Shown here in pieces: positions 7,138-51,003 of a DNA stretch of 64,000 bases; within the stretch, counting starts at the first letter, position 1, and every line of letters starts with the position of its first letter. The notes beneath the pieces were generated by a model. That model did no database searches. It had not been told where the DNA came from and worked only from the letters and a program-made list of their open reading frames with translations. The DNA lies in the NCBI GenBank assembly GCA_003137095.1, contig PLET01000125.1, forward strand, positions 1 through 64,000, given 5' to 3'. The position numbers and the translations under genes are program-made. The DNA is from Gammaproteobacteria bacterium. Its GTDB lineage: Bacteria; Pseudomonadota; Gammaproteobacteria; Steroidobacterales; Steroidobacteraceae.

Positions 7138-8647
7138 CGGCGTGGGCAGCCGCCGCGCCGCGCCGCGGCGGCTGCAGAAGAAAAATCAGCGGCATCACCA
7201 GCAGCGTCAGGATGAGCATCAGGCAGAAATCATCGACGTAGGCGATCATCGCGGCCTGCTGGGTGATGGTTGCATCCAGCGCGGCGACTCCGGCCGGCAC
7301 CTTCAAGTCGTAGATTGCTGCAATGGCGGGATTGTCCCAGGCGGGATTGGCATAGGTGATCCTATCGGTGAGCGCGGCGTGCACGACCACGGTGTTGCGC
7401 ACCAGCATGGTTTGCACGAGGGAGATGCCGATACTGCTGCCGATGTTGCGGATCAGGCTGTAGATGGCGGTGCCTTGGGCGCGCATAGACGGATCCAGGG
7501 TGGCAAAGGTGGCGGCGCTCAGCGGCACGAACACCAGCCCGACGCCGATGCCCTGGATGATGCCAGGCCAGATGATGTCGGCGGCCGAGAGGTCCAGCGA
7601 ATAGCGGCTCATCTGCCACAGCGAGAATGCGGTGACGGCAAAACCGACGAACACCGCCACTCGCACATCGGTCCTTCCAACCATGCGGCCGGCGATGAGC
7701 ATGGCGATCATGGTACCCAGTCCCGCGGGCGCCGTGACCAGACCGGTGGTCGCGACCGGGTAGCCGATCAGGGTCTCGAGCATGGTGGGGGTCAGCGCGC
7801 GGGTCGCATACAGGACCAGGCCGACGATGAATATGAACAGCAACCCGGTGACATAGTTGCGGTTCCTGAGCAGCCGGAAATCGAAGAACGATTTGAAGGC
7901 CGGGGTGAGCGCGGTATGTGCGACGAAATAGGTGAACGCCATGAACAGGACCAGGGATTCGATCCAGGTCTCCGTCGAGGAGTACCAGTCGTTTTGCTGG
8001 CCGCGATCCAGAAGCATCTGCAGCGCGCCGATGGCGAGGCTCAGGGAGGCAAATCCAAACATGTCGAAATCCATGCGCCTCGCACCCGGCACGGCGCGGA
8101 TGTATCTCCAAATCCCGTACAGCGCGAGCCCTCCGACCGGGATGTTGATGAAAAACACCCAGCGCCAGCTGTAGCTGTCGGTGAGCCAGCCGCCGAGCGT
8201 CGGCCCGAGGATGGGGCCCACCATGACGCCCATTCCCCAGACGGCCATGGCGGATCCCTGCTTTTCCGGCGGGTTGATGTCCATCAACACCACCTGCGAC
8301 AGGGGCACCAAGGCGGCGCCGAACACCCCCTGCAGCAGGCGCGCCGCCACGATGGCGGCTAGGGAGTTGGCGACTCCGCACAGGGCGGAGGCCAGCGTGA
8401 AGCCCGCCACCGACACGAGAAAGACCTGTTTCTGGCCGAATCGATCACACAGCCAGCCGGTCAGGGGTGTCGCGATCGCTGCGGCGACGATGTAGGCAGT
8501 GAGCACCCAGGTGATCTGATCCTGCGAAGCGGACATGCTGCCCTGCATGTGGGGCAGCGCGACATTGGCAATGGTGCTGTCCAGCGTTTGCATGATGGTG
8601 GCCAGCATGATCGACAGGGTGATCATGGGCCGATTGAGCGGCCTCAT
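7127..8647 (-). CDS. DHA2-family MFS multidrug exporter (EmrB/QacA-like)
   Basis: 506 residues with about 14 hydrophobic segments. It shows the DHA2 motifs LDSTIANVALPHM (about 22-34), GWLCDRFGQK (MFS motif A, about 66-75) and motif C-like GPILGPTLGGWLTD (about 145-158). It probably exports small hydrophobic compounds. It lies directly after the marR gene with a one-base TGATG overlap, the usual layout of a MarR-controlled EmrB pump. No EmrA-type adaptor is next to it. Its 3' end overlaps that of the RND transporter. Confidence 0.9.
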   Translation of the reverse strand: MRPLNRPMITLSIMLATIMQTLDSTIANVALPHMQGSMSASQDQITWVLTAYIVAAAIATPLTGWLCDRFGQKQVFLVSVAGFTLASALCGVANSLAAIVAARLLQGVFGAALVPLSQVVLMDINPPEKQGSAMAVWGMGVMVGPILGPTLGGWLTDSYSWRWVFFINIPVGGLALYGIWRYIRAVPGARRMDFDMFGFASLSLAIGALQMLLDRGQQNDWYSSTETWIESLVLFMAFTYFVAHTALTPAFKSFFDFRLLRNRNYVTGLLFIFIVGLVLYATRALTPTMLETLIGYPVATTGLVTAPAGLGTMIAMLIAGRMVGRTDVRVAVFVGFAVTAFSLWQMSRYSLDLSAADIIWPGIIQGIGVGLVFVPLSAATFATLDPSMRAQGTAIYSLIRNIGSSIGISLVQTMLVRNTVVVHAALTDRITYANPAWDNPAIAAIYDLKVPAGVAALDATITQQAAMIAYVDDFCLMLILTLLVMPLIFLLQPPRRGAAAAHAVME

Positions 8648-10902: not shown

Positions 10903-12249
10903 GTGACCTCGAATCAAAAGATGCCGCACATCAAGACCGAATTGCCGGGACCGAGGACGCGAGATCTGCTGGCCCGCGACGCGATGGTGGTGGCGCCGTG
11001 TTACCCGCGCGATTACCCGTTCGCCATGTCGCACGGCCGGGGCGCGGAGGTTTGGGACGTGGACGGCAACCGCTTCCTGGATTTTGCCGCGGGCATTGCG
11101 GTATGCAGCACCGGCCACAGTCACCCCGCCGTGGTCGAGGCGGTGAGGCAGGCCGCCGGCCGCTTTCTGCACATCTCCTCGGACTACTGGCATGAAGCCC
11201 AGGTGCGCCTCGCCGAGCGCCTTGCGGAGCTCGCTCCCATGAAGGAGCCGGTCATGAGCTTCTTTGCGCAGTCCGGAACCGAAAGCGTGGAAGCGGCGTT
11301 GAAGCTGGCACGTTTCGCCAGCGGACGCAGCCGCTTTATCGGCTTTCTTGGCGGGTTCCATGGCCGCACCATGGGCTCTCTGGCGTTCACCTCCAGCAAG
11401 TACACCCAGCAGCGCGGCTATTTTCCGGTGATGCCGGGCGTGACGCACGTCCCGTACCCCAACGAATTCCGGCCGATATTCGCCGGCGCCGACCAGGGCC
11501 GCGCGGTGCTGCGTTACATCGAAGAGGTGCTGTTCGCCGGCAACCTGCCGGCCAGCGAAGTCGCCGCCATTCTCGTGGAACCGATATTGGGCGAGGGCGG
11601 CTACGTCGTTCCTCCGGACGGCTTTCTCGGCGGCCTGCGCGAGCTATGCGATCGCCACGGCATGCTGCTGATTTTCGACGAGGTGCAGTCGGGAATCGGC
11701 CGCACCGGCCGGATGTTTGCGTGCGAACACTGGGACGTCGTCCCGGACATCATGACACTGTCAAAGGGGCTGGGCTCCGGACTGCCCATCGGGGCGATGG
11801 TTGCAAAACGGACGATCATGCAAAAGTGGTCGCGCGGAGCCCACGGCAACACGTTCGGTGGAAACCCCCTGTGCTGTGCCGCGGCGTTGGCCACGCTCGA
11901 TCTGGTCGAGGATGCTTATGCGCAGAATGCCGCGACCGTGGGTGCCTACTTCATGCGCAGGCTGGGCGCGTTAGCGGCCGGTTCGCCGGTGATCGGTGAG
12001 GTGCGCGGCAGGGGGCTGATGATCGGCATGGAGCTCGTGACCGACAGGACCGGCAATGCACCCGCCCGAAGGCTCTGCGACACCCTCGTCACGCGTGCGT
12101 TTCACAATGGTTTGCTGCTGTTGTCATGCGGCGCCAGCACGGTGCGGTTCATGCCGCCGTTGATGATCACGAACTCCGACGTCGATGAGGCGATGGCGCT
12201 GCTGAAGATCAGCCTGGCCGAGGCGCTCGTCGATGCCGGCGCGGCCTGA
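10903..12249 (+). CDS. Class III PLP aminotransferase (GabT-like)
   Basis: 448 residues from GTG 10903; ATG 10921 is an alternative and neither has a strong ribosome-binding site. Fold type I class III features: GTESVEAALKLAR (about 125-137), GFHGRTMGSL (about 151-160), LIFDEVQSGIGRTG (about 257-270, PLP aspartate) and the Schiff-base lysine in LSKGLGSGLPIGA (about 287-299). The family removes omega-amino groups from compounds such as GABA or putrescine. A PotF-like binding protein follows after 2 bases, suggesting uptake and transamination of an amine. Substrate unknown. Confidence 0.85.
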   Translation: MTSNQKMPHIKTELPGPRTRDLLARDAMVVAPCYPRDYPFAMSHGRGAEVWDVDGNRFLDFAAGIAVCSTGHSHPAVVEAVRQAAGRFLHISSDYWHEAQVRLAERLAELAPMKEPVMSFFAQSGTESVEAALKLARFASGRSRFIGFLGGFHGRTMGSLAFTSSKYTQQRGYFPVMPGVTHVPYPNEFRPIFAGADQGRAVLRYIEEVLFAGNLPASEVAAILVEPILGEGGYVVPPDGFLGGLRELCDRHGMLLIFDEVQSGIGRTGRMFACEHWDVVPDIMTLSKGLGSGLPIGAMVAKRTIMQKWSRGAHGNTFGGNPLCCAAALATLDLVEDAYAQNAATVGAYFMRRLGALAAGSPVIGEVRGRGLMIGMELVTDRTGNAPARRLCDTLVTRAFHNGLLLLSCGASTVRFMPPLMITNSDVDEAMALLKISLAEALVDAGAA

Positions 12250-12251
12250 AC

Positions 12252-13361
12252 ATGGCCGCCGGCCGTTCAATGGCGGCAGTGCTCGGTGTGCTGCTGGCTT
12301 GCGGCGGCACCTTGCGACCGGCCGGCGCCGCAGAGGAGGAGAAGCGGCTGTACATCTACAATTGGACGGATTTCATTGGCCGCAACACCATCGCCCGGTT
12401 CGAAAAACTCACCGGCATCAAGGTAGTTTACGACGTGTACGACGCCGAGGAGACCATGGAGGCACGCCTGCTGGCCGGCAGCTCCGGCTACGATGTGGTC
12501 AGCGCATCCACGGATTTCTTCAGTCGTGAGATCAAGGCGGGAGTCTACATGCCGCTGGACAAATCCAAGCTGAGCAATTGGAAAAACCTCGATCCGCGGG
12601 TGCTCGCGATTCAGGCGGCGTATGATCCGGGCAATGCCCACGCGGTGCCGTATCTGCACTCGATGAACGGCTTCGCGTACAATGTAGACATGATCAAGGC
12701 GCGCATGCCGAACGCGCCGGTCGACAGCCTCGACATGATTTTCAATCCCGCGGTGGTCGCCAAATTCGCCGATTGCGGGGTGACCTTCCTGGATTCCGCC
12801 GAGGACACCATCCAGCTTGCGCTGCGCTATCTGGGGCTCGATCCGAATACCACGAAGCGCGAGGATTTCAAAGCCGCCGAGCAATTGCTGCTCAAGGTCC
12901 GGCCCTACGTGCGCTCCTTCGATTCCGCCGAATACATGAACGGCCTGGCGAACCGGGAGGTGTGCGTGGCCATGTCCTGGTCCAGCGACTACGCGCTGGC
13001 ACATGCCCGCGCGTTGGCCGTCGGGGTCGACGTGAAGCTGGCCTTCACCGTGCCGAAGGAGGGTTCCAACGAAACCTTTTCCTCGCTGCTCATACCGGAT
13101 GGTGCTCCCCATCCTCAAGCCGCGCACCAGTTCATCAATTTCATCCTGCGGCCGGACGTGATCGCCGAGATCAGCAATGATATTTATTACGGCAATGATA
13201 ATATCGCGTCACGTCCGCTGGTCGATCCGCGTATCCTTGGGGATTCGACCCTGTATCCGACACCGGAAATCGAGGCGCGTCTGTACCTATCCGCCGAAGT
13301 GAACGCGGCCACCGAGCGGATACGCACACGCACCTGGACGCGCATCAAGACCGCGAAATAG
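12252..13361 (+). CDS. PotF-like periplasmic substrate-binding protein of an ABC importer
   Basis: 369 residues. The N-terminus is a signal peptide (about 1-26, ending near PAGA); the LLAC segment could be a weak lipobox. The mature protein begins with LYIYNWTDFIGRNTIARFEK, typical of PotF/PotD, and carries the family segments YDVVSASTDFF and VPYLHSMNGFAYN. It belongs to the polyamine/opine/quaternary-amine binding proteins. The gene follows the aminotransferase by 2 bases and precedes the tmpA-like gene by 18. The matching permeases are on the opposite strand (15110-16851), and the only matching ATPase is at 35968. Confidence 0.87.
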   Translation: MAAGRSMAAVLGVLLACGGTLRPAGAAEEEKRLYIYNWTDFIGRNTIARFEKLTGIKVVYDVYDAEETMEARLLAGSSGYDVVSASTDFFSREIKAGVYMPLDKSKLSNWKNLDPRVLAIQAAYDPGNAHAVPYLHSMNGFAYNVDMIKARMPNAPVDSLDMIFNPAVVAKFADCGVTFLDSAEDTIQLALRYLGLDPNTTKREDFKAAEQLLLKVRPYVRSFDSAEYMNGLANREVCVAMSWSSDYALAHARALAVGVDVKLAFTVPKEGSNETFSSLLIPDGAPHPQAAHQFINFILRPDVIAEISNDIYYGNDNIASRPLVDPRILGDSTLYPTPEIEARLYLSAEVNAATERIRTRTWTRIKTAK

Positions 13362-13379: not shown

Positions 13380-14522
13380 GTGAGCACACACGGCATTCCT
13401 AAACTGACGATCAGCTCCCCCACCGAGCTGTCGATAGACCGCGGCGGACAGCGCTTTGCGATCCATCCCATCTGGCTGCGCGAACGCTGCCAGGATCCGG
13501 CGAGCATCGACCTCGCCACCGGCCAGCGGCTCCACGACCCGTCGGGTCTGGATCTCGATCTGCGCCTGGTGGCGCTGTCCGAACCTGCCCCCGGACGGCT
13601 GCACGTGCGCTTCAGCGACGGCCACGAGGCTGACTTCGACTGCGGCGCAATCCTGGCGGAGGCGGCGCTTGCGCCCGGGGATCACGACTGTCCGGCGCCG
13701 CAGCTTTGGACCTCACAGCTCGGCGATCCGCCGCGTGCGCGCTGGCGCGGCAATCCCGGAAATCCCGACCTCGCCGATTGGACCGAACGGTTCCTGCGGC
13801 TGGGCTTCATCCTATTCAGCGGCGTACCTCCCGAGCCCAGGCAGGTGTTGAAGGTGGCGAGTACGTTCGGCTTCACCCGGGACACGAATTTCGGCGCGAT
13901 GTTCGACGTTCGCTCGACGCCCAATGCCATCGATCTGGCGTACACCTCGATCCCGCTCGACCCCCACACGGACAATCCCTACCGCTCGCCCGTGCCCGGC
14001 GTGCAGCTGCTGCATTGCCTCGTCAATGAGACATCGGGCGGCCTGTCGACCCTGGTGGACGGATTCGCGGTGGCCGAGGCCCTACGGATGCGTGATCCGG
14101 CGGCATTCGAAATTCTCAGCCGGACCCCCGTGCGATTCCGCTATCGCGACGCGTCCACCGAATTGGTGGCGAGCGCGCCGCCGATCGAGCTGGACGTCGC
14201 CGGACGGCTGCGCACGATACACTTCAGTCCGCGCCTGGATTTCGTGCCGCTGTTGCCGCCGGCCGACCTATCGGCCTATTACCGGGCGCGGCGCGAGTTC
14301 GACCGGCTGCTGTGCGCGCCGGAATTCGAGATCCGCTTCCTGCTGGCGCGAGGCGACCTGGTGATGTTCGACAATTGCCGCCTGCTGCACGGCCGGACGG
14401 GTTTCGATCCGGCCCGGGGCATGCGCCATCTGCAGGGCTGCTACATCGATATCGACGGTCCGCGCAGCCTGTATCGGGTGCTGCGCCGCAAGCACACCGC
14501 GCCGGCGAGGATTTCGGCATGA
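13380..14522 (+). CDS. tmpA: Fe(II)/2-oxoglutarate oxygenase of the gamma-butyrobetaine hydroxylase family, probable TmpA
   Basis: 380 residues from GTG 13380. An N-terminal DUF971-like domain (about 10-100) precedes a TauD/TfdA double-stranded beta-helix. The iron facial triad is visible: H196 and D198 in DPHTDNPYRSP, and H337 in LLHGRTGF; R349 in RGMRHLQGCY probably binds 2-oxoglutarate. The CxCxxC zinc cluster of true gamma-butyrobetaine hydroxylases is absent; only C37 remains in WLRERCQDP. The stop overlaps the start of an HD-domain gene, the arrangement known for TmpA/TmpB, where TmpA hydroxylates 2-(trimethylammonio)ethylphosphonate. Gamma-butyrobetaine hydroxylase is the main alternative, relevant because carnitine genes are nearby. 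Confidence 0.75.
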   Translation: MSTHGIPKLTISSPTELSIDRGGQRFAIHPIWLRERCQDPASIDLATGQRLHDPSGLDLDLRLVALSEPAPGRLHVRFSDGHEADFDCGAILAEAALAPGDHDCPAPQLWTSQLGDPPRARWRGNPGNPDLADWTERFLRLGFILFSGVPPEPRQVLKVASTFGFTRDTNFGAMFDVRSTPNAIDLAYTSIPLDPHTDNPYRSPVPGVQLLHCLVNETSGGLSTLVDGFAVAEALRMRDPAAFEILSRTPVRFRYRDASTELVASAPPIELDVAGRLRTIHFSPRLDFVPLLPPADLSAYYRARREFDRLLCAPEFEIRFLLARGDLVMFDNCRLLHGRTGFDPARGMRHLQGCYIDIDGPRSLYRVLRRKHTAPARISA

Positions 14523-15097
14523 GCCGCATGGTCAGCTTCCACCGGATGCAGGACGGCACCCGCGAGGACTACCAGCTGCTCGATGAATCCGAACGCGAAT
14601 ACGCGCGTGCGCTGCCCGACAACGTGCTCGCGGCGCTCGCCAAGCTGGATCATTCTCTGGAGGGCTATCCGCTGAGCCGCCTCGGCCACTCGCTGCAGGC
14701 CGCAACGCGGGCGCGCCGGGATGGCGCGGATGACGAACTCGTGGCCGCGGCGCTTATTCACGACATCGGCGATGAGCTCGCGCCCTACAATCATGCCGAG
14801 ATCGCCGCCGGCATCCTGCGGCCATACGTGCGCCCGGAGGTCGCGTGGATAGTCGAACAACATGGACTGTTCCAGAATTACTATTACGTGCATCACTTCG
14901 GAGGCGACCGCAATGCGCGCGACAAGTATCGCGAGCACCCCTGGTATCAGGCATGCAAGGACTTCTGCGCCAACTGGGACCAGTGCTCATTCGACCCGGG
15001 TTATCCCACGGAACCGCTTGCCGCATTCGAGCCTTTGGTGCGCACCATCTTCAGCCGGGCGGCGCACGATCCGCGCTACGTCAAAAATCCGCCCTGA
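14519..15097 (+). CDS. tmpB: HD-domain diiron oxygenase, probable TmpB (PhnZ-like C-P bond cleavage)
   Basis: 192 residues, starting inside the tmpA stop (ATGA). A full PhnZ-type metal set is visible: H57 (LGHSLQ), H81-D82 (LIHDIGDE), H92 (YNHAEI), H115 (EQHGLF) and D154 (ANWDQCSF). PhnZ and TmpB use a mixed-valent diiron centre to cleave 1-hydroxyphosphonates oxidatively; TmpB yields glycine betaine and phosphate. Annotation pipelines usually call such proteins HD phosphohydrolases. Coupling to a TmpA-like gene and the betaine-catabolic genes elsewhere in the window favour the TmpB role. Activity is inferred, not shown. Confidence 0.75.
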   Translation: MSRMVSFHRMQDGTREDYQLLDESEREYARALPDNVLAALAKLDHSLEGYPLSRLGHSLQAATRARRDGADDELVAAALIHDIGDELAPYNHAEIAAGILRPYVRPEVAWIVEQHGLFQNYYYVHHFGGDRNARDKYREHPWYQACKDFCANWDQCSFDPGYPTEPLAAFEPLVRTIFSRAAHDPRYVKNPP

Positions 15098-15109: not shown

Positions 15110-15940
15110 TCAGCGCTCGGCCAGCTGTGCGTCGGCGATGCGCCGCTGATCGGCGAGGCGCATCCAGTAGCCCGCCGCCAGCACGCACGCGCCGACCAGC
15201 ACGATGATCAGGCTCGCAAGCGCATTGACGTCCGGGCTGACGCCGAGCTTGACCTTGGAAAATATCACCATCGGCAATGTGCTCGCGCCAGGGCCGGAAA
15301 CGAAGCTCGATATCACCAGATCATCGAGCGACAGCGTGAAGCTCAGCAGCCAGCTCGACGCCAGCGCCGGCGCGATGCCCGGCAACGTCGTGTCGATGAA
15401 CGCCCGCACCGGTCCGGCGCCCAAATCCATGGCGGCCTCCTCCAGCGAACGATCCGCGGACTGCAGCCGGGACTGCACGGTGATCGTGACATAGGCCGCG
15501 CAGAATGCCATGTGCGCAATGACGATGGTGGTGAAGCCCCGGTGGGGCCACGCAAACCAGTGCAGCATCGACACGAACAGCAGCAGCTGGGTGATGCCCG
15601 TGATAATTTCGGGCATGACCAGCGGCGCGTTGACCATTCCGGTGAGCAGCAGCCGGCCGCGAAAGGTCTTGAATCGCACCAGTGCGATCGCGGCGAGCGC
15701 TCCGAGGATGACCGAACCGGTCGCCACCACGACGCCTATGCGCAGGCTCAACCAGGCGGCGTCGAGGATCTGATCGTTGTGCAACAGCTCGAGATACCAC
15801 TGCGCGGAGAAGCCGCCCCAAACGCTCACCAGGGCGGAAGCATTGAATGAATAGCCGATCAACACCGCGATGGGGACGTACAAAATCGCGATCCCCAGAC
15901 ACAGGATGGTAATCAGCAGCGGCGCGATGCGTTCCTGCAC
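15110..15940 (-). CDS. ABC importer permease (PotC/PotI-like)
   Basis: 276 residues with six hydrophobic segments. The BPD-type EAA loop is present (SLEEAAMDLGAGPVRAFIDT, about 186-205), as is a PotC/PotI C-terminal pattern (LDDLVISSFVSGPGASTLPM). It would form the inner-membrane channel with the upstream PotH-like protein. The two genes are 2 bases apart and divergent from the TetR gene at 16867. The binding protein is on the other strand (12252), and no ATPase is adjacent. Confidence 0.88.
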   Translation of the reverse strand: MQERIAPLLITILCLGIAILYVPIAVLIGYSFNASALVSVWGGFSAQWYLELLHNDQILDAAWLSLRIGVVVATGSVILGALAAIALVRFKTFRGRLLLTGMVNAPLVMPEIITGITQLLLFVSMLHWFAWPHRGFTTIVIAHMAFCAAYVTITVQSRLQSADRSLEEAAMDLGAGPVRAFIDTTLPGIAPALASSWLLSFTLSLDDLVISSFVSGPGASTLPMVIFSKVKLGVSPDVNALASLIIVLVGACVLAAGYWMRLADQRRIADAQLAER

Positions 15941-15942
15941 GC

Positions 15943-16851
15943 TCAGGACTCGAGCTGCTTCGAGCTGTAGTGCTGGTAGAGCGCGATCGGCCCCACCAGC
16001 AGCACCAGGAACACGATGGCGACGGCCGAGGCCACCGGCCAGTCGCGATTGCCGAAGAATTCATCCCACAGCACGCGCCCGATCATCAGATTATCCGGGC
16101 CGCCCAGCAGGGTCGGGATGACGAATTCACCGATGGCCGGAATGAACACCAGCATCGAACCGGCTATGACGCCGGGCATGGACAGGGGCAGCGTGACGTC
16201 GATGAAAGCGCGCCAGGGCGGGCTGCCCAGGTCCGCCGCCGCCTCCAACAGGGAATGGTCGAGCTTCTCCAGGGTCGCGAACAGCGGCAGCACCATGAAC
16301 GGCAGATAGGAATAGATGATCCCGAGATACACGGCCAATGTTGTCCGCATGATCTGCAGCGGATGATCGATGATGCCGAGCCACAGCAGCGCGGAATTGA
16401 GCAATCCGCTCTCGCGGATGATGCCCTCGAGGGCGTACACACGTAGCAGGAACGAGGTCCAGAACGGTAAAATGATGATCAGCAGCAGGATGCTCTGGGT
16501 GCTTTTCGACGTCCGTGCGATGGCGTAAGCCATCGGGTAGCCGAGGGCCAGGCAGATGACCGTCGAAAAGAAGGCCGTCTTGATGGAATACAGGTAGGAG
16601 AGTCCGTACACCTCGTCGGTGAACAGGTACTTGAAGTTGCCGAGATTCAGCGTCAGATCGAGGTGCCAGTCGGGCGTGATGGATACAATGTCCGAAAATG
16701 GCGGAACCCGCACCGCGGTGTCGGCGAAGCTGATGACCAGGGCGAAAGCGAAGGGAATGAGAAAAAAGATCAACAGATACAGCAGCGGAGGCAGGATGAT
16801 CAGCCACTTGCCGTGCCGTCGCAGCCACCCGCGTCGCGCGGCTCCGGCCAC
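15943..16851 (-). CDS. ABC importer permease (PotB/PotH-like)
   Basis: 302 residues from GTG 16851. Six hydrophobic segments, with the EAA loop at about 214-233 (LLEAAADLGSPPWRAFIDVT) and the PotH-like segment PAIGEFVIPTLLGGPDNLMI (about 249-268). First gene of a two-gene permease operon reading towards the tmpB-like gene. Its start is 15 bases from a divergent TetR gene, so both promoters must overlap coding sequence. Likely partners are the PotF-like protein at 12252 and the ATPase at 35968. Confidence 0.88.
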   Translation of the reverse strand: MAGAARRGWLRRHGKWLIILPPLLYLLIFFLIPFAFALVISFADTAVRVPPFSDIVSITPDWHLDLTLNLGNFKYLFTDEVYGLSYLYSIKTAFFSTVICLALGYPMAYAIARTSKSTQSILLLIIILPFWTSFLLRVYALEGIIRESGLLNSALLWLGIIDHPLQIMRTTLAVYLGIIYSYLPFMVLPLFATLEKLDHSLLEAAADLGSPPWRAFIDVTLPLSMPGVIAGSMLVFIPAIGEFVIPTLLGGPDNLMIGRVLWDEFFGNRDWPVASAVAIVFLVLLVGPIALYQHYSSKQLES

Positions 16852-16866
16852 GGATCAGCGGTTCCC

Positions 16867-17715
16867 GTGACGCTGAGGAAGGGCGCACGCGCGCCGCACA
16901 ATTCCGTCAGCGTGAAAAAGCCGGCCCGTGGCCGCCAGCGCCAGCGCCTGATCGAGGCGTGCATCTCCGCCCTGCACATTCACGGACCTTCCCGCACGAC
17001 CGTGGAAAAAGTCGTGTCCATCGCCCGGATGTCGCCCGGCATCGTGCGATTTTACTTCGACTCCAAAGCCGCCATGCTGGTCGCGTCGCTGCAATTTCTC
17101 TCCGCGGAATTCGAGGAGCGCGTCCTGACCCCGGTCGGCCGCCTCAAGGAGGATCCGATCGCGGCCCTGGAACTCCTGGTGGATCTGTATATCGATCCTG
17201 AAATCGCCAGCGCCCGCAAGGTTTCGGTCTGGTACGCCTTTTGGGGCGAGGCGAATTCACGCCAGGAATACTACGACATTTGCGGCGCTCAAGACGAGCG
17301 CTTTGCGGCCTTGGTGCACGAGCTGATCGGCACCCTTATCATCCGCACGCGTCAGCCGCAGCTCGACCCGGACGGCGTGGCCCTCGGATTGACCGGTGTG
17401 TTGGAGATGCTGTGGCAGGGATTCGCTTTTCAAACCGAGGACAACATCGATCGGGAGGCGGCCAAGCGGCGCTGCATGGCGTATTTGCGTTCGATCTTCC
17501 CGGATTCGTTCGGGCGTGGCGCCGACGCCGCCGCTCCGACCGGCGGCCGTGCGGGGCGCACCGATGCGTCGCTGCGGCCGGCTCGAAGCTATGACGATGC
17601 GCGTTGGATTGCCATCGAATCGGCCTTGGCCGAATTCAGGCAGGCGCTGCGCCGCCTGATGCCGCCGGCGTGGGGGCCTGATGAGGCCGAACGAGCTGAT
17701 GACGGCGAACGATAA
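16867..17715 (+). CDS. TetR/BetI-like transcriptional regulator with C-terminal extension
   Basis: 282 residues from GTG 16867; GTG 16912 (267 residues) is also possible. The helix-turn-helix is at about 35-65 (TTVEKVVSIARMSPGIVRFY), resembling BetI (IARRAGVSTGIISHYF). The BetI-like core ends near YLRSIFPDSF, and about 70 extra residues follow, rich in Ala, Gly and Arg, which BetI lacks. Its position, divergent from the permeases and 76 bases before the aldehyde dehydrogenase, suggests it controls one or both. The ligand is probably an amine or quaternary ammonium compound (inference). Confidence 0.8.
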   Translation: MTLRKGARAPHNSVSVKKPARGRQRQRLIEACISALHIHGPSRTTVEKVVSIARMSPGIVRFYFDSKAAMLVASLQFLSAEFEERVLTPVGRLKEDPIAALELLVDLYIDPEIASARKVSVWYAFWGEANSRQEYYDICGAQDERFAALVHELIGTLIIRTRQPQLDPDGVALGLTGVLEMLWQGFAFQTEDNIDREAAKRRCMAYLRSIFPDSFGRGADAAAPTGGRAGRTDASLRPARSYDDARWIAIESALAEFRQALRRLMPPAWGPDEAERADDGER

Positions 17716-17791: not shown

Positions 17792-19291
17792 ATGGCCACG
17801 CTTTCCTCGAAATTGGACGAATGGCGCGCACGCGCCGCCACTGCCCGCTACGAGACGCGGCATTTCATCGACGGCCGGTTCGTCGAGTCCGTCGCGGGGG
17901 ATCATTTTACGGTGATCAATCCCGCCACCTCCCAGCCGCTGTGCGAGGTCAGTGCCGGCGGTCCCAAGGAAATCGACCTGGCGGTGGCCAGCGCCAAGCG
18001 CAGCTTCGGCGCAAGGGTCTGGAGCCGCAAGGCGCCGCGCGAGCGGATGGCGGTGCTCGCGGCCTTGAGCCGGCTGATCGAGAAAAACGCCGAACAGTTT
18101 GCGCTGCTCGACACGCTGTGCATGGGCAAGCCGATCAGCGACATGCTGAACATCGACGTGCCTGCCGCCGCCATGAATTTCGCCTATTTCGGCGAACTCA
18201 TCGACAAGATAGACGGCGCGGTGACGGCCACCGCGGCCGATGCGTTTCATTACATTCTGCGCGAACCGCTGGGCGTGGTGGGTTGCATCGTGCCGTGGAA
18301 TTACCCGCTGCTGATGGCGGCCTGGAAGGTGGCTCCGGCGCTCGCGGCCGGCAATTCCGTGGTGCTGAAGCCGGCGGAACAATCACCGCTGTCCGGGCTG
18401 CTGCTCGCGCAGTTGTTCGTGGAGGCCGGCGGTCCGCCGGGTGTGCTCAACGTGGTGAACGGCCTCGGCGAAAGCGCCGGCGCTGCGCTTGCCCTGCACA
18501 ATGACGTGGCCAAGATCGGCTTCACCGGCTCGACCGAGATCGGCAAGCAGATGCTGATCTACGCCGGCCAGTCCAACATGAAACGCGTCAGCCTCGAGTG
18601 CGGCGGAAAAACACCGCAGATATTTCTTGCCGACCTGCCGGACATCGACGTGGCGGTGACCTACGCGATCAACGGGATCTTCGGCAACATGGGCGAGGTG
18701 TGCAACGCAGGTTCCCGGCTGCTCATCGACAAGCCGATTGCCGCGGATTTCCTGTCACGGTTCATCGAGCGCGGCAAGACCGCGTACCGGCCCGGGGATC
18801 CACTGGACCCGGCCACCAATCTCGGACCGCTGGTGACCGCGTCGCATCGGGCCCGGGTCATGAACTACATCACGCGCGGCAAGACCGAGGGGGCCCGGCT
18901 GGAATTCGGCGGCAATGCGCCCGATCTGCCGGGTTGCTTCGTCAACCCGACGCTGTTCTCGGGCGTCGCCAATCACATGACCATTGCGCGTGAGGAAATC
19001 TTCGGGCCGGTCGCAGCCGCGATCGTGGTCGACGGGCTGGCCGAAGCGCTGACGGTCGCCAATGATTCCATCTACGGACTGGCGGCTTCCGTTTGGACCC
19101 GCGATCTGACCGTGGCGCACAAAACCGTGCGCGATCTGGAGGCTGGCGTGATCTGGGTGAACTGTTTCGATCACGGAGATATGACCCAGCCCTTCGGCGG
19201 ATATAAACAGTCCGGACAGGGCAGGGACAAATGCATCGAGAGCTTGCTGTCCTATACCCAGACCAAGTCCGCCTGGATCAATCTCGGCTGA
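17792..19291 (+). CDS. Aldehyde dehydrogenase, aminoaldehyde/betaine-aldehyde type (PuuC-like)
   Basis: 499 residues. NAD-dependent ALDH features: VPWNYPLLMAAWKVAPAL (about 169-186), FTGSTEIGKQM (about 245), the general-base Glu in LECGGKTPQIF (about 268) and the nucleophile Cys in GEVCNAGSRLL (about 302). The GGKTPQIFLADLPD and CNAGSRLL segments resemble PuuC. A GGGAG ribosome-binding site lies 8 bases upstream. Given the carnitine and betaine genes around it, 4-trimethylaminobutyraldehyde or another aminoaldehyde is a reasonable substrate. A dedicated BetB lies at 49515. Confidence 0.87.
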   Translation: MATLSSKLDEWRARAATARYETRHFIDGRFVESVAGDHFTVINPATSQPLCEVSAGGPKEIDLAVASAKRSFGARVWSRKAPRERMAVLAALSRLIEKNAEQFALLDTLCMGKPISDMLNIDVPAAAMNFAYFGELIDKIDGAVTATAADAFHYILREPLGVVGCIVPWNYPLLMAAWKVAPALAAGNSVVLKPAEQSPLSGLLLAQLFVEAGGPPGVLNVVNGLGESAGAALALHNDVAKIGFTGSTEIGKQMLIYAGQSNMKRVSLECGGKTPQIFLADLPDIDVAVTYAINGIFGNMGEVCNAGSRLLIDKPIAADFLSRFIERGKTAYRPGDPLDPATNLGPLVTASHRARVMNYITRGKTEGARLEFGGNAPDLPGCFVNPTLFSGVANHMTIAREEIFGPVAAAIVVDGLAEALTVANDSIYGLAASVWTRDLTVAHKTVRDLEAGVIWVNCFDHGDMTQPFGGYKQSGQGRDKCIESLLSYTQTKSAWINLG

Positions 19292-28783: not shown

Positions 28784-29947
28784 TCAGACGAATTGCCGGG
28801 GCGCGCTCGGCAGACGCGCCTCGGGAATGCGCTCGCGCAGCAGATTGTGGAATTCGAACATCCAGGACTCGAGGGTCGACAGCGGGCCGGGCTCGTAGCT
28901 TCGCGATCCGAGTCCGCGCTGTACCCGCGTACACAACCACTTGTCCTCGTTGTTCACCTGGGTGTTGATGCGGTTTCCCAGGAAGCGCACGGCGCGCATC
29001 TCCGCACTGGCATTCGGCAGTCCGAACAGGCCGCTGCGCACGATGCAGCGGCCGGGAACATCGGGCAGCACCTGGAAGAAATCCATCTGATCGGGAAACA
29101 CGTCGATTCCGAGGTTCGGCAGCATGCTGTAGAAGCGCCAGCAGCGCCGTTGCGCCTCCGGCAGCTGGGTGGCCGCGCGGCCGATCAGGCGCTGATACAT
29201 GCGCTCGGACCAATTTGAGGACTCGGTGTCCCGCAGCCAGCTCACACCGCGGGCGACGCCGGGCACCGACGCCTGATCGTCGTAGTCCGGACTGAACATG
29301 CGGAACAAGCCGGGATGGCCGATGGGAACGTGATAGGACTCGAGGTAATTGTCCATCGCAATTTTCCAATCCACCGGCCACACGTCCACGCTGATCGGGC
29401 CGAGCGGCACCATGTCCTCGAAGCGATAGACCGCCAGTTCCTCGCCGAGGCGGCCCCAGATCTTCGATACCGGCGGTGGATCTCCCGTCAGGCAGACGAA
29501 CACGAAGCCGAAGGCGCTGTCGACTCGCATCGGCCGAAGGCCATGTTTGGAGCGGTCGAGGCCTGCAAAGCTCTCGCGCATCGGGGTGCCGATGAGGCCG
29601 CCATCCTGCCGGTAGGTCCAGCCGTGATACGGGCAGGTGATGGTCGACGAACAGCTTCCGGAGCCGTCCAACAGCCGGGCGCCGCGATGTCGGCAGACGT
29701 TGTGGAACGCGCGGATCCCGCCATCGCGGTCCCGCAGCACCAGCACGCTGTCGGCCCCCACGTCGAGCGTCACGTAGTCGCCGGATCGGGGGATCGAATT
29801 GACGTGGCAGACGATCTGCCAGCTCGGCAGAACGATCCGCTCCAATTCGAGCCGCGTCATGTCGGCATTGTTGTACACCCACGCGGGCAGCGCATGGATC
29901 TCGCCGCCCGGGCGCATCTGCCGCTTCTCAACGATCAGGCTGCTCAT
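28784..29947 (-). CDS. Rieske non-haem iron oxygenase, alpha subunit (CntA/GbcA-like)
   Basis: 387 residues. The Rieske [2Fe-2S] ligands are C85/H87 (NVCRHRGARL) and C105/H108 (CPYHGW). The mononuclear iron site is H206 and H211 in DNYLESYHVPIGHPGL, and the bridging residue is Glu203, as in carnitine monooxygenase CntA/YeaW, rather than the usual Asp. This subgroup hydroxylates N-methyl groups of quaternary amines such as glycine betaine, carnitine or stachydrine, releasing formaldehyde. GGAGGAA lies 6 bases before the ATG. No matching reductase gene (CntB/GbcB) is in the window. Betaine is a likely substrate given the context, but not proven. Confidence 0.85.
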   Translation of the reverse strand: MSSLIVEKRQMRPGGEIHALPAWVYNNADMTRLELERIVLPSWQIVCHVNSIPRSGDYVTLDVGADSVLVLRDRDGGIRAFHNVCRHRGARLLDGSGSCSSTITCPYHGWTYRQDGGLIGTPMRESFAGLDRSKHGLRPMRVDSAFGFVFVCLTGDPPPVSKIWGRLGEELAVYRFEDMVPLGPISVDVWPVDWKIAMDNYLESYHVPIGHPGLFRMFSPDYDDQASVPGVARGVSWLRDTESSNWSERMYQRLIGRAATQLPEAQRRCWRFYSMLPNLGIDVFPDQMDFFQVLPDVPGRCIVRSGLFGLPNASAEMRAVRFLGNRINTQVNNEDKWLCTRVQRGLGSRSYEPGPLSTLESWMFEFHNLLRERIPEARLPSAPRQFV

Positions 29948-30050
29948 CGGATTCCTCCGCCGTCAATCGGCCGGTTGCACGCGCGGTCTGCGCTAACGAA
30001 CGATGCGCCGGAGACCCGCACTTATATGACCATTTAATTTTCTCCGAAGC

Positions 30051-30077
30051 CGGCGTCTTTGGCAAGCCAAAGCGCCG
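30051..30077. other. 12-bp stem hairpin
   Basis: CGGCG-t-CTTTGGC-AA-GCCAAAG-CGCCG folds into a stem of up to 12 pairs with one bulged T. With the innermost pair opened, the loop is CAAG. It lies about 104 bases upstream of the Rieske start codon, between the divergent promoters, where it could act as a 5' leader structure, a terminator or an operator. No T-tract directly follows it on the plus strand. Confidence 0.5.
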
Positions 30078-30153
30078 CAACACGAAAAAATGCGATAAAA
30101 AGCTGTCTAAATCCCAGCTCGGCCAGGGTTTGCGCGCGTCGCGGCTTTTTATT

Positions 30154-30169
30154 TATACGAGTATATAAT
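30154..30169 (+). promoter_or_regulatory. Palindrome overlapping a -10 hexamer upstream of the GSAM-like operon
   Basis: TATAC-GA-GTATA (30154-30165) is a 12-bp inverted repeat whose right arm runs into a perfect TATAAT (30164-30169), 71-76 bases before the start codon at 30240. A clear -35 hexamer at 17 bp spacing is not seen, which would suit an activated or repressed promoter. The ACGAG core and following TATAA resemble the palindrome at 46332-46351. Confidence 0.45.
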
Positions 30170-30239
30170 AACCGTGGACGCCTCGTTTGACGGATGTTAG
30201 GGTCGACTTGCAAATGATCCTGCAATGGGGGGAATCGCG

Positions 30240-31583
30240 ATGGCCCGCACACTGACCAAGAACAACGCACATTTCCAGCGTGCCGTGCAGCATCTGCCGC
30301 TGGGCGTCGCCTCCAATTTCCGTTACTGGGGCGAGGACCGGACCATTTATGTCAAGCGCGGCCGTGGTGCGCGCATCGTGGATCTGGACGACAATTCCTA
30401 CGTCGATTACCGGCTGGGCTACGGGCCTGCAATTCTCGGATATGCGGATCCCCGGGTCGATGCGGCGGCGCATGCGGGCATGGAGATCGGCGGGGTGTTC
30501 GCGCTTTCCACCGAGCGTGAATTGAACGTGGCCGAACGCATCTCCAAGATGGTGCCTGCGGCCGAGCTCGTGCGTTTTTCCAACTCCGGCACCGAGGCGG
30601 TGATGGCGGGACTGCGGTTGGCGAGGGCATACACCGGGCGAGACGACTACGTGATTCTGGAGGGCGGCTATCACGGACTGTTCGACGCGGCGATGTGGTT
30701 CACGCCCATGGACAAATGGTCCGAGGTGGGCGACCCGGCCGTGCTGCCCTACAGCGAGGGCGTTCCCATCGGCCTGAAGAGCTTTGCGCACTTCGTGCAG
30801 GCCAACGATTCCAATCAGCTCGAAGACGTGTTCCGGCGCCACGCACACCGCATCGCCTGCATGCTCATCGAGCCGATCATGGGGAACTGTCTCGGCATCG
30901 CCGCCGAACCGCAATATCTGCGCACGGCTCGCGAATTGTGCGACCGGTACGGTGTGGTGTTGCTCATCGACGAGGTCAAGACGGGATTTCGGGTGGCTCG
31001 CGGCGGCGTGCAGGAGCTGTACGGCATCGACGCCGACCTCTGCACGTTCGCCAAGGCCCTCGCCAACGGCTATCCGATTTCGGTGCTCGCGGGGCGCGCG
31101 CACATCATGCGCAAGATCGGCCGCGGCGTCGCCCATGGCGGAACCTACACGGCGCATTCGGTCTCCCTGGCCGCGGCGGAGAAGACCCTGGAAATTCTCG
31201 ATGAGACCGATGCGCTGGAACGCGTTGCGGATTACGGCATGCGCCTGCGGCAGGGGATGCGCGCCATTCTCTGCGCGCGCGGAATCGCACACAGTTTCGT
31301 GGGCCATCCGTCGATGAGCGGGCTGTATTTCGCCGAGCAGCCGCCGCGCAATTACCGCTCATGGAAGGGCAGCGACTACACTTTCTACGACGCCATGGCC
31401 AGGGTATTGCACGACGAGGGCGTGTTGTGCGAACCGGACTCGCGCGAACCGTGGTTCGTGTCCGCGGCCCATGATGATTCCTGTCTGGTCGATACGCTGA
31501 AGGCCTTCGAGCTCGCCGTGGATGCCACGCTGCAGTCCGGCACGGGCGGCATGGCCGGTGCATCGCGTAAGGTTCCGGCTTGA
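30240..31583 (+). CDS. Class III PLP enzyme, glutamate-1-semialdehyde-aminomutase-like
   Basis: 447 residues from ATG 30240, preceded by GGGGGGAA; ATG 30225 is less likely. Features: FSNSGTEAVMAGLRLARAYT (about 115-134), GGYHGLFD (about 143), LIDEVKTGFR (about 243-252) and Schiff-base lysine in FAKALANGYPISVLAG (about 267-282). It is closest in pattern to GSAM-like aminotransferases, but haem synthesis is unlikely because it heads an operon with two flavoproteins and a GcvT-like protein. It overlaps the first flavoprotein by 4 bp. It could be an aminotransferase, aminomutase or beta-amino-acid enzyme; substrate unknown. Confidence 0.8.
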   Translation: MARTLTKNNAHFQRAVQHLPLGVASNFRYWGEDRTIYVKRGRGARIVDLDDNSYVDYRLGYGPAILGYADPRVDAAAHAGMEIGGVFALSTERELNVAERISKMVPAAELVRFSNSGTEAVMAGLRLARAYTGRDDYVILEGGYHGLFDAAMWFTPMDKWSEVGDPAVLPYSEGVPIGLKSFAHFVQANDSNQLEDVFRRHAHRIACMLIEPIMGNCLGIAAEPQYLRTARELCDRYGVVLLIDEVKTGFRVARGGVQELYGIDADLCTFAKALANGYPISVLAGRAHIMRKIGRGVAHGGTYTAHSVSLAAAEKTLEILDETDALERVADYGMRLRQGMRAILCARGIAHSFVGHPSMSGLYFAEQPPRNYRSWKGSDYTFYDAMARVLHDEGVLCEPDSREPWFVSAAHDDSCLVDTLKAFELAVDATLQSGTGGMAGASRKVPA

Positions 31584-33199
31584 GCAGCAGCCGTATGGCG
31601 CCGGTCGGGAGCTACGATGCCATCGTGGTCGGAGCCGGTCACAACGGCCTGGTTGCCGCCTGCTATCTGGCGCGGGCCGGTCTAAAGACGCTGGTGCTCG
31701 AACGCCAGCCCTATATCGGCGGGGCGGCGGTCAGCCGGCGGCTGTACCGCGATTTCACCTATTCGAACTGCTCGTATGTGTGCAGCCTGCTGCGGCCGGA
31801 GATCATCCGGACATTGCAGCTGCCGCGCTTCGGATTGCAGTTGATTCCGTACGAGGGCGGCTGCACCATGATGCGCGACGGCGGCCATCTGGCCCTGTAC
31901 GACAATCACGATGCCCTGCGGCGGGAAATTGCCCGGCACTCGAAGCGCGACGCCGAAGCCTACGAGCGCTACTCGCGCGACGTGATGCGCCAGTGCAAAT
32001 TCATCAAACCTCTGCTGATGCGTGAACCTCCGGATCCGACCTCCTTCAAGCCGCGCGACATCCTGGAACTTCTGCATCTCGGGCAGCGATTTCATCGCCT
32101 CGGGGAGCGCCGCATGTACGATACGCTGCGGTTCTGGAGCATGAGCGCCGCCGATTTTCTCGATGAGTATTTCGAGAGCGAAATCGTCAAGGCGCACTTC
32201 GCAGGCAGTTCCATCATCGGTACGGCGCTCGGACCGCGTTCGCCCGGAACCGCCTATGTGCTGCTGCATCATTACATGGGCGACATCGACGACACCGTGG
32301 GCGCCTGGGGATTTGCGCGCGGCGGCATGGGCGCCATCAGCAACGCGCTCGGCGCCTCGTTGCAAGCGAGCGGCGGAGCCATTCGCAGCGGTGTCGAGGT
32401 TGCCAGGATTCTGGTGCGCGGCGGCCGGGCCCGCGGTGTGGCCCTTGCGAGCGGCGAGGAGATCCGCTCGAGGCTGGTGATATCCAACCTGGACGTGCGG
32501 CGCACCTTCCTGAAGACGATGGACCCCGGGGATCTGCCGGACGAGTTCCTGCGGCGGGTGCGTAATTTCAAGATCCGTGGATCTTCCGGCAAGCTCAACA
32601 TCGCGCTGGACGGGCTGCCGAGCTTTCCCGCGATTCCGGCCGGCGCACCGTGCATCCGCGGCGACATGCACGTCACCGACACCGTGGAGATGATGGAGCG
32701 CGCATACGATGATTGGAAGGACGGACGCTGGTCGCGTGCGCCCTACATCGACATGCTGATCCCGTCGCAGATCGACCCCAGCATGGTTCCCGACGGCAAG
32801 CATTACATGTCGGTGTTCGTGCAGTATTGTCCGTATGTGCTTGCCGACGGGGAATGGGACGGTCAACAACGTCAGGCCTTCGGCGACACCGTGATCGACA
32901 CCATCGCGCGGCACAGCCCCGATTTCAAGAGCCTGATTCTGCATGCGGAAATCCGCACGCCCTGGGACATTGAAAACGAGGTGGGCCTGACCGAGGGCAA
33001 CATATTCCAGGGTGAACTCACCATGGATCAGTTGCTGTTCAACCGGCCGATTCCCGGCTATGCGCAATACCGCTCGCCGGTGCGCGGCATGTACATGTGC
33101 GGATCGAGCACGCATCCGGGCGGCGGCGTCATGGGCGCGCCGGGCGCCAACGCCGCGCGCGCGGTGCTGCGCGATCTGCGCAGGATGCAACCGGCGTGA
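31580..33199 (+). CDS. FAD-dependent oxidoreductase, CrtI/PYROXD2-like (copy 1)
   Basis: 539 residues. An N-terminal dinucleotide fold (VVGAGHNGLVAACYLARAG, about 15-33) leads into IGGAAVSRRL. The C-terminal FAD motif is GMYMCGSSTHPGGGVMGAPG (about 503-522). The overall pattern is the phytoene-desaturase/PYROXD2 branch of flavin amine oxidoreductases, but no carotenoid genes are nearby. It overlaps both neighbours and is clearly paralogous to the next gene, so a heterodimer or two successive oxidations of one substrate is possible. Substrate unknown. Confidence 0.8.
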   Translation: MSSSRMAPVGSYDAIVVGAGHNGLVAACYLARAGLKTLVLERQPYIGGAAVSRRLYRDFTYSNCSYVCSLLRPEIIRTLQLPRFGLQLIPYEGGCTMMRDGGHLALYDNHDALRREIARHSKRDAEAYERYSRDVMRQCKFIKPLLMREPPDPTSFKPRDILELLHLGQRFHRLGERRMYDTLRFWSMSAADFLDEYFESEIVKAHFAGSSIIGTALGPRSPGTAYVLLHHYMGDIDDTVGAWGFARGGMGAISNALGASLQASGGAIRSGVEVARILVRGGRARGVALASGEEIRSRLVISNLDVRRTFLKTMDPGDLPDEFLRRVRNFKIRGSSGKLNIALDGLPSFPAIPAGAPCIRGDMHVTDTVEMMERAYDDWKDGRWSRAPYIDMLIPSQIDPSMVPDGKHYMSVFVQYCPYVLADGEWDGQQRQAFGDTVIDTIARHSPDFKSLILHAEIRTPWDIENEVGLTEGNIFQGELTMDQLLFNRPIPGYAQYRSPVRGMYMCGSSTHPGGGVMGAPGANAARAVLRDLRRMQPA

Positions 33200-34753: not shown

Positions 34754-35962
34754 ATGCCCGCCGACGCAGTCCGCCCGCCGCATTTCGAACAGCCGCTGCT
34801 GCAGACGCCATTCCATGCGCGTGCGCGTGCCCTGAGCCAGGTCGACAGCTTCATTCCCTGGGCCGGGTACACCACCGTCGATGTGTTCACGCACGTCGAA
34901 CAGGAATATTTCGCGATCCGCAACGCCAGCACGCTCTATGACCTGACTCCGATGGTCAAGTACCGCATCACCGGACGCGGCGGGTCGGCCTATCTCAACC
35001 GGCTGGTGACGCGTGATGTGGGGAAGCTCAAGATCGACCGGGTCGCCTATTGCGTGTGGTGCAACGATGCCGGTCATTTGATCGACGATGGTACGGTGTT
35101 CAGGTTCGGCGAGAACGAGTACCGGCTGTGCACCGCCGAGCGACAGATCGACTGGCTGCTGGATTCGGCGGTGGGTTTCGAAGTCGACGTGACGGAGATC
35201 ACGGAGGAGGTTGCGGCGCTCGCCTTGCAGGGGCCGACCTCCTTCGCGGTGCTGAAGGCCGCCGGTCTCGCCGGAATCGAGCGCCTGCGGCCGTTCGAGA
35301 TCGGCCGCTTCTCGATCGCAACGCAGCCGGTGACGGTGTCGCGCACCGGCTTCACGGGGGATCTGGGCTATGAGATCTGGATGGTGCCCGGCTCCGCCGA
35401 GGTCGTATGGGACGCTCTGATGGTGGCCGGCCGCTCGCGCGGCATCCGCGCCATCGGCTCGCAGGCGCTGAACGTCGCACGCATCGAGGCGGGCTTCATT
35501 TCCCCGAAGATCGACTTCCTTTCGGCCGAGCGTACGATCCGGATCGGACGCGAGCGGTCGCCGCTGGAGCTCGGGCTTGCCTGGCTGGTGGATTTTGACA
35601 AGGGCCACTTCACCGGACGGCGCGCGCTCCTGGAGGAGAGCCGGCGCGGGGTACGCCGTCGGCTCGTGGGGCTGGACGTTGAGGGCAACAAGCCGGCTCA
35701 TAATGCGCTGCTGTACGCGCAGCGCTCCGGCAAGCACGAGATCGGCTTCGTGACATCGGCAACCTGGTCGCCGACTTGCAAACGCAACATCGCGCTTGCT
35801 ATGGTCGATGCGCCGCATTTCGCTGTCGGCGGGATACTTTGGGCGGATATTTATCTGAATCGTGAACTGGTGTGGGAACGTCGCATGGCGCGGAGCCGTG
35901 TGGTCGAGCGGCCGTTTTTTGCCCCGGACCGGCGTCGCGCGACGCCGCCGGCAGATTTCTAA
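34754..35962 (+). CDS. GcvT-like folate-dependent aminomethyl/demethylase protein
   Basis: 402 residues. A complete GcvT fold: DLTPMVKYRITGRGGSAYLN (about 60-79), ALQGPTSF (about 157), SRTGFTGDLGYEIW (about 196-209) and C-terminal IGFVTSATWSPTCKRNIALA. Family members transfer one-carbon units from N- or S-methyl substrates to tetrahydrofolate (glycine cleavage T protein, dimethylglycine and DMSP demethylases). It starts 1 base after the second flavoprotein, so an oxidative demethylation giving methylene- or methyl-THF is a reasonable idea. Substrate not known. Confidence 0.83.
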   Translation: MPADAVRPPHFEQPLLQTPFHARARALSQVDSFIPWAGYTTVDVFTHVEQEYFAIRNASTLYDLTPMVKYRITGRGGSAYLNRLVTRDVGKLKIDRVAYCVWCNDAGHLIDDGTVFRFGENEYRLCTAERQIDWLLDSAVGFEVDVTEITEEVAALALQGPTSFAVLKAAGLAGIERLRPFEIGRFSIATQPVTVSRTGFTGDLGYEIWMVPGSAEVVWDALMVAGRSRGIRAIGSQALNVARIEAGFISPKIDFLSAERTIRIGRERSPLELGLAWLVDFDKGHFTGRRALLEESRRGVRRRLVGLDVEGNKPAHNALLYAQRSGKHEIGFVTSATWSPTCKRNIALAMVDAPHFAVGGILWADIYLNRELVWERRMARSRVVERPFFAPDRRRATPPADF

Positions 35963-35967
35963 AGGCG

Positions 35968-50993: not shown

Positions 50994-51003
50994 GGGCCGG
51001 CCG

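Follow-up and report, generated by a model that had tools for sequence, protein, structure and literature searches.

A tandem of a TmpA-sister hydroxylase and a divergent HD-domain protein in a betaine and carnitine region of a Steroidobacteraceae genome

HD-domain oxygenases with known substrates are few. They comprise MIOX, PhnZ, TmpB, a hydroxymethylphosphonate enzyme, and a fungal PhnY-PhnZ fusion, as gathered from an excerpt of PMC8177086 among other sources and from the names of profile models. MIOX (PDB 2huo) cleaves a C-C bond, and TmpB and PhnZ (PDB 6npa and 4n6w) are encoded downstream of a 2-oxoglutarate (2OG) oxygenase, which in the TmpB system is TmpA, the 2-trimethylaminoethylphosphonate hydroxylase of Leisingera caerulea (PDB 6npb). 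Here, we describe a related gene pair at positions 13380-15097 of a 64,000-nucleotide stretch, termed the window (positions 1 to 64,000, forward strand, of contig PLET01000125.1, GenBank assembly GCA_003137095.1), from a gammaproteobacterium of the Steroidobacteraceae. A previous sequence-only reading regarded this pair as TmpA/TmpB-like, converting 2-(trimethylammonio)ethylphosphonate (TMAEP) to glycine betaine and phosphate. Its outline stands, as a hydroxylase nearer to TmpA than to gamma-butyrobetaine hydroxylase (BBOX) is encoded in tandem with a protein of HD-oxygenase fold; the HD protein, however, is not TmpB. Judged from the sequences, the pair resembles TmpA/TmpB in outline and represents a variation on the PhnY/PhnZ-TmpA/TmpB theme; the tests made place it in neither family. 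With middling confidence, we propose that it works on another N-methylated amine, which would be hydroxylated and then cleaved oxidatively at a C-C, not a C-P, bond toward a betaine.

The first open reading frame (ORF) occupies positions 13380-14522 on the forward strand (GTG start, 380 aa) and the second occupies positions 14519-15097 on the same strand (ATG start, 192 aa), the two overlapping by 4 bp in a shared ATGA. The tandem of a gamma-butyrobetaine-hydroxylase-like Fe/2OG oxygenase and an HD protein is thus as first described, and the metal ligands named for them, H196, D198, and H337 in the oxygenase and H57, H81, D82, H92, H115, and D154 in the HD protein, all occur at these positions. 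The oxygenase scores 163 bits on TauD (cut-off 27) and the HD protein 29 bits on the HD domain (cut-off 22). On profile scores, tree, and residues, the former is an Fe/2OG hydroxylase of a TmpA-sister clade, termed TmpA-II; on residues, fold, and tree, the latter is a putative mixed-valent diiron oxygenase, termed HD-II. Both ORFs are conserved in other genomes, which rules out a chance or pseudogene origin of the pair. In all 13 TmpA-II loci examined, including the window, the HD gene lies directly downstream on the same strand, although most of these loci were found via the HD protein and their adjacency is therefore partly a matter of selection; searches with the hydroxylase as query gave four and two further-checked TmpA-II cases, all adjoining HD-II. 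The nearest HD start codon lies at -4, i.e., with a 4-bp overlap, in six of the 13 loci including the window, possibly in a seventh (L094; loci and genomes are given by our L and G numbers), and the widest gap is 91 bp.

TmpA-II shares with TmpA the fold, the Fe and 2OG residues, and the aromatic cage. Its nearest solved structure is 6npb, both by sequence and by Foldseek E-value (predicted model, pLDDT 86.4), and the window protein retains the Fe ligands H196/D198/H337, R349 at the position of the 2OG arginine, and the cage F171/F175/Y188/Y355. The anion site is different. In TmpA, the phosphonate is held by N187, N287, and R288, and BBOX uses N191 and N293 (excerpt of PMC9296572); for BBOX, N191 and the cage residues Y177, Y194, and W181 are also given in an excerpt of PMC13257696. 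The corresponding site of the window hydroxylase consists of D185 and S283-P284-R285, so that N187, N287, and R288 become D185, P284, and R285 and one of three phosphonate contacts is kept. The combination D, P, R is found in 13/13 rows of the window's clade, and N187 with R288 in 16/16 TmpA-type rows. With Asp and Ser-Pro in the TmpA anion site, TMAEP is unsupported as the substrate. The window hydroxylase scores 354.4 bits on the TmpA model, below its cut-off of 400; this cut-off alone does not separate TmpA-II from TmpA-type proteins, because a sister genome encodes a TmpA-type protein that likewise stays under it (356.9 bits). In the tree, the 13 TmpA-II rows form a clade (support 100/99) sister to the TmpA-type rows including 6npb; the two groups together have a support of 96/83, and the TmpA-type group alone just 85/60. 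The hydroxylase is placed outside the verified butyrobetaine hydroxylases, of which the human enzyme is the only one in the tree and serves as its root. BBOX1 (PDB 4bg1) shares family, fold, and cage with TmpA-II, but its Zn cysteine cluster and N191/N293 are lost in the latter, and the butyrobetaine dioxygenase model yields 265 bits (cut-off 415). The Zn cluster was previously considered missing; this applies to C40 and C43, replaced by D and S, and the first aligned cysteine (C38) remains. Residues and tree together rule out a true BBOX.

The HD protein, too, differs from its described counterparts, with 25.6 bits on NF049941, the TmpB model (cut-off 300), and 37.4 bits on TIGR03276, the Phn-HD model (cut-off 214.6); a TmpB/PhnZ-type protein of L220 is also below both cut-offs, with 192 and 206 bits, respectively. 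Together with 114 relatives (115 rows in total), it forms the HD-II group, which a long branch (support 100/100) sets apart from 16 TmpB/PhnZ-type rows. The residue counts exclude matches that contain an internal stop, have fewer than 130 residues, or duplicate another row, and L087 and L042 are absent for this reason. Five of the six Fe ligands are present in 115/115 HD-II rows and D154 in 114/115 (one gap), but these ligands, on which the sequence-only reading relied, are common to all HD-domain oxygenases. In PhnZ, the phosphonate is bound by the lysine of the AKRYL motif and by an arginine three residues before the last aspartate. AKRYL is found in 0/115 HD-II rows versus 16/16 TmpB/PhnZ-type rows, its lysine position being Gln in all 115 (Q119 in the window) and Lys in all 16. 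The arginine is present in 16/16 TmpB/PhnZ-type rows and 3/115 HD-II rows, the position being occupied mostly by Glu, Ala, or His in HD-II (A151 in the window). The YxxE loop, which an excerpt of PMC8177086 describes as a substrate-gated feature of PhnZ and TmpB absent from MIOX, is found as YxGE in 16/16 TmpB/PhnZ-type rows and in 0/115 HD-II rows, the window having L47-E-G-Y50. With these losses, the profile scores, and the separate clade, the identification as TmpB falls.

The predicted structure of the HD protein (pLDDT 94.8) nevertheless matches PhnZ (Z 17.3, root-mean-square deviation 3.0, 154 residues aligned), TmpB (Z 16.5), and MIOX (Z 11.4), with 18-26% identity to TmpB/PhnZ in the structural alignments. 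Because these matches stand far above all others (Z at most 8.2), the HD protein is more likely an oxygenase than a hydrolase, as far as a predicted model indicates. Identity with myo-inositol oxygenase is rejected, as the sequence match is weak (19.5 bits, Pfam cut-off 25). HD-II is also smaller than MIOX; one HD-II member, on a Phaeobacter plasmid, bears the annotation "inositol oxygenase family."

Two kinds of pair are distinguishable across genomes. A window-type hydroxylase (at least 64%) occurs in four of 60 relatives (G000, G010, G018, and G020), each time beside HD-II, and other relatives possess a TmpA-type hydroxylase of 37-42% identity to that of the window. In 14/14 TmpA-type loci read (L175-L188), the HD neighbor has YxGE, AKRYL, and the arginine; we refer to these sister pairs as TmpB/PhnZ-type because their HD protein too scores under the curated cut-offs. 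An additional hydroxylase match at 39-40% was found in G010, G018, and G020, the neighborhood of that of G020 being outside the set read. Since TmpA/TmpB-type pairs thus occupy other loci of sister genomes, the two pairs are different things. A scan of 398 Pseudomonadota genomes gave 39 hydroxylase matches besides that of the window, and 29 of these loci were read: hydroxylases with D, P, R adjoin HD-II in 2/2 cases, those of at least 59% to 6npb have an HD neighbor with AKRYL and/or YxGE in 12/12, as does one hydroxylase of 44%, and in 13 loci, L226 among them and most encoding other BBOX-like proteins, the surrounding 1.5 kb or so contains no HD match; the remaining locus, L227, has a distant HD-II neighbor. 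The residue check of YxxE, AKRYL, and N187 separated the two kinds in nearly all loci read. Furthermore, apart from the window's own region, four of the 13 TmpA-II pairs, all from outside its genus, have betaine-type neighbors, i.e., a BCCT transporter (L093), a betaine-homocysteine methyltransferase (L102), choline genes (L167), and carnitine dehydrogenase with a 3-keto-acid cleavage enzyme (BKACE) (L115), which fits glycine betaine as the product.

Among TmpA-type loci, an organophosphate-type major facilitator superfamily (MFS) gene (PgtP family, 158 bits, cut-off 408) adjoins the hydroxylase gene in L219 and has homologues in L220 and L221, i.e., in three of the five loci read more widely. 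In L221 (L221:7030-9396), a single 788-aa open frame matches both the MFS transporter and the TmpA-type hydroxylase of neighboring genomes, and it could be a fusion or a chance read-through. Another contig of the window's genome (G000:C17:151297-151815; L033, L063) encodes a PhnZ-like HD protein that has both YxGE and AKRYL (201.5 bits, cut-off 214.6); the two TauD-family matches and one PhyH match of this genome lie on contigs other than that of the PhnZ-like gene.

HD-II extends well beyond TmpA-II. In the window's family, it is encoded in the Pot-type locus of 15 genomes (window, L035-L045, L047, L065, and L066), at a distance of about 6 kb from the Pot genes in L042; G034 also has HD-II in a Pot-type locus, with no TmpA-like match at E 0.001. 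Of at least 495 confirmed HD-II loci in the collection of named genomes, the best 80 were read; these are the closest ones and include near-copies, so that their counts are not independent events. Most of the 80 show no TmpA-like gene, 13 contain BKACE, and 11 contain carnitine dehydrogenase. Fifteen belong to SAR11, where HD-II directly follows a purF-type gene (identified in one representative) and no 2OG hydroxylase was found in the stretch read; in four loci of SAR11/Pelagibacterales (L111, L125, L128, and L162), HD-II lies at 8001-8543. HD-II was also seen in Rhodobacterales, Rhizobiales, and Gammaproteobacteria and in records labeled Actinomycetota, Chloroflexota, and Gemmatimonadota. 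A further partner of HD-II is a second hydroxylase clade, TMPA2 (L052, L053, L054, L097, L099, L108, L123, and L143). It is butyrobetaine-hydroxylase-like, keeps the Zn cysteines, is distinct from the TmpA-II clade, and has a modified cage with His at the W181 position in 8/8 and at the Y194 position in 7/8; some TMPA2/HD-II pairs are near dimethylglycine-dehydrogenase (DMGDH)/GcvT-like genes. The label "with TmpA-II" (a count of 14, which includes L102_201m, a second, distant HD protein labeled by its locus name) requires 10 changes on the HD-II tree, and therefore no HD-II subclade marks the pairing. Because HD-II occurs without TmpA-II in many loci and with TMPA2 elsewhere, and because of these 10 changes, the hydroxylase appears to be an interchangeable first step, with HD-II as the invariant component.

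The frequent lack of a TmpA-like gene beside HD-II and the SAR11 loci following purF-type genes would also agree with a non-oxygenase role of HD-II in amine metabolism, as a small hydrolase or housekeeping enzyme, TmpA-II being merely its operon companion, and the ligand pattern is one common to dinuclear HD hydrolases (excerpt of PMC8177086). We consider this quite improbable, since the fold points to PhnZ, TmpB, and MIOX over other HD proteins, HD-II directly follows TmpA-II on the same strand in all 13 loci examined, and a second hydroxylase clade is paired with it.

The pair is flanked by transporter genes, as the sequence-only reading had noted. Upstream are a class-III aminotransferase (10903-12249, forward; profile matches) and a PotF-like substrate-binding protein (12252-13361, forward; Pot model and binding-site residues), and downstream are PotI-like (15110-15940, reverse) and PotH-like (15943-16851, reverse) permeases, each assigned by a profile match. 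These are followed by a TetR regulator with a BetI-type C-terminal domain (16663-17715, forward; its start is uncertain and, as listed, overlaps PotH) and a PuuC/BADH-like aldehyde dehydrogenase (ALDH; 17792-19291, forward; below all cut-offs shown). The transporter genes by the pair score best on Pot (polyamine-type) models. In the PotF-like protein, the proximal amine site is kept (W37, D39, and D247) and the distal pocket is altered (F276 to T and D278 to S); D278 is missing in 18/20 PotF-like rows, three of which are the window's own gene and two of which are one other gene, and is kept in at least 96% of a polyamine-receptor set (excerpt of PMC8666671). A peptidase S58 (DmpA-like) gene adjoins PotF on the opposite strand in L040 (L040:11505-12698), with homologues in L035, L036, L041, L043, L047, and L065, and is absent from the PotF locus of the window.

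The betaine-catabolic setting previously claimed is real and includes carnitine genes. A Rieske oxygenase, distantly GbcA-like (28784-29947, reverse; 166 bits, cut-off 670), a GntE/GSAM-like class-III aminotransferase (30225-31583, forward; 85% to its L040 homologue), a CrtO-like FAD amine oxidoreductase (31580-33199, forward), and a second CrtO-like FAD oxidoreductase (33097-34752, forward) are followed by a GcvT-like folate-binding protein (34754-35962, forward), a PotG/PotA-like ATPase (35872-37110, forward; 398 bits on the potA subfamily, cut-off 355.6), which is probably the partner of PotF/H/I, and carnitine 3-dehydrogenase (37079-38632, forward; 595.8 bits, cut-off 592). In relatives (e.g., L040 and L043), the Rieske, GntE-like, and CrtO-like genes directly follow the ALDH gene; the same set (28784-34752) is about 10 kb from it in the window, where the cluster seems to be split. 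Farther along are an acyl-CoA dehydrogenase (39264-40427, forward; 58% to an L119 homologue), an acyl-CoA-ligase-like protein (42780-44885, reverse; 40% to an L101 homologue, which adjoins carnitine 3-dehydrogenase), a BKACE homologue (45382-46281, reverse; 56% to that of L109), a ChoX-like choline-binding protein (48449-49315, reverse; matched stretch, 55% to that of L167), betaine-aldehyde dehydrogenase (49515-50993, forward; 772 bits, cut-off 593), and a choline-dehydrogenase-like GMC oxidoreductase (50980-52665, forward; 47% to BetA of L167).

These neighbors raise a carnitine route, in which TmpA-II would convert gamma-butyrobetaine to carnitine and HD-II would split carnitine, or its other isomer, to yield glycine betaine plus a two-carbon acid, so that carnitine dehydrogenase would be by-passed. 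The window's carnitine 3-dehydrogenase and BKACE homologue are roughly 22 and 30 kb away from the pair, TmpA-II belongs to the BBOX superfamily, and in 10 of the 11 carnitine-dehydrogenase loci among the best 80 the stretch read shows no TmpA-like gene, carnitine being already hydroxylated. Nevertheless, this route appears rather unlikely: BBOX N191, which contacts the butyrobetaine carboxylate, is Asp in 13/13 TmpA-II rows, HD-II would be redundant in loci already holding carnitine dehydrogenase and BKACE, and 13 of the 29 loci read in the phylum scan, mostly those of other BBOX-like proteins, lack an HD neighbor.

In the reading that we prefer, TmpA-II would use Fe and 2OG to hydroxylate a carbon near a methylated ammonium held in the aromatic cage, as suggested by the chemistry of its family, and HD-II would bind the new hydroxyl at a mixed-valent diiron center and split the neighboring bond with O2. 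The product would be a betaine or betaine-like acid, passed to the glycine-betaine and carnitine genes around the pair, and the substrate would probably enter via the PotF/H/I transporter. The substrate may carry a primary amine at the end opposite the methylated ammonium, because of D185, the PotF-like proximal amine site, and the two aminotransferases. A C-C bond is a more likely target than a C-P bond, given that HD-II lacks the pocket residues of TmpB/PhnZ and that TmpA-II retains only one of the three phosphonate contacts. Both reactions, their order, and the class of substrate are what we infer beside the observed sequences, clades, residue changes, predicted folds, and gene order. More tentatively, HD-II may represent an undescribed class of diiron HD oxygenases that cleave C-C bonds in N-methylated amines bearing a hydroxyl. 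It would act by itself on substrates that already carry this group, as in carnitine-type loci, and would otherwise be coupled to at least two different hydroxylases, TmpA-II and TMPA2; the window pair would then be one example, serving an amine that enters by the Pot system.

Several observations weigh against the proposed reading. Some concern the coupling of the two proteins: TmpA-II is present in 3/15 Pot-type loci (window, L035, and L037) and absent beside HD-II in 12/15, and therefore the two need not act in sequence; and of two intermediate hydroxylases (D, N, R) near the TmpA-II clade, only that of L227 has an HD protein close by, a distant HD-II, whereas none was matched near that of L226. 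A further point is that the L094 pair is followed by efflux-pump genes. Others concern the phosphonate. TmpA is the best NCBIfam match of the window hydroxylase, TmpA R288 is retained (R285 in the window) in all 13 TmpA-II rows, and N287 varies among the 16 TmpA-type rows (8 N and 8 S). As N187 is present in all 16 and N287 in only eight, the change of N187 to D appears, from these alignments, to be the sharpest difference between TmpA-II and TmpA, and that of N287 a softer one. HD-II has conserved arginines of its own, R54 in 111/115 and R134 in 113/115 rows, which could hold an anion. The ATPase at 35872-37110 also matches the PhnT2 aminophosphonate-transport model (356 bits, cut-off 457.7, versus 445 on PotG), and the TmpA-II/HD-II pair of L091 (4483-9815) has a PhoR-like kinase gene on one side and a PstS-like gene on the other, flanks that would fit phosphate release and that constitute the sole phosphate link among the pair neighbors tested.

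The best match to the TmpA model, the retained R288, and the flanks of the L091 pair, together with the sister position to the TmpA-type rows, 6npb as the top solved structure by sequence and fold, and nearby betaine genes that would give the product a fate, argue for a divergent but true TmpA/TmpB, in which TMAEP or a close methylated aminophosphonate would be converted to glycine betaine and phosphate in re-modeled pockets. We regard this as unlikely. The HD protein scores far below the TmpB and Phn-HD cut-offs and has none of YxxE, AKRYL, and the arginine; N187 and N287 of the hydroxylase have become D and P; and sister genomes carry separate TmpA/TmpB-type pairs. Furthermore, the transporter is of polyamine, not phosphonate, type, and Pho-box-like sites in the window are not above chance (10 found versus 11.4 expected). 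As far as the neighbors tested show, transporter and regulator thus do not mark a phosphonate locus.

The HD-II clade is the more interesting half of the pair. A search of open-licence PubMed Central literature found no title on this clade, and HD-II is a widespread, apparently unstudied family. Calls of "TmpA/TmpB" made from a hydroxylase and iron ligands alone would over-count phosphonate users. If the proposed function is true, this large clade, which shares the iron ligands but has another pocket, is linked to carnitine and betaine genes, and occurs in SAR11, would bring a new oxidative step into methylated-amine turnover in soil and sea.

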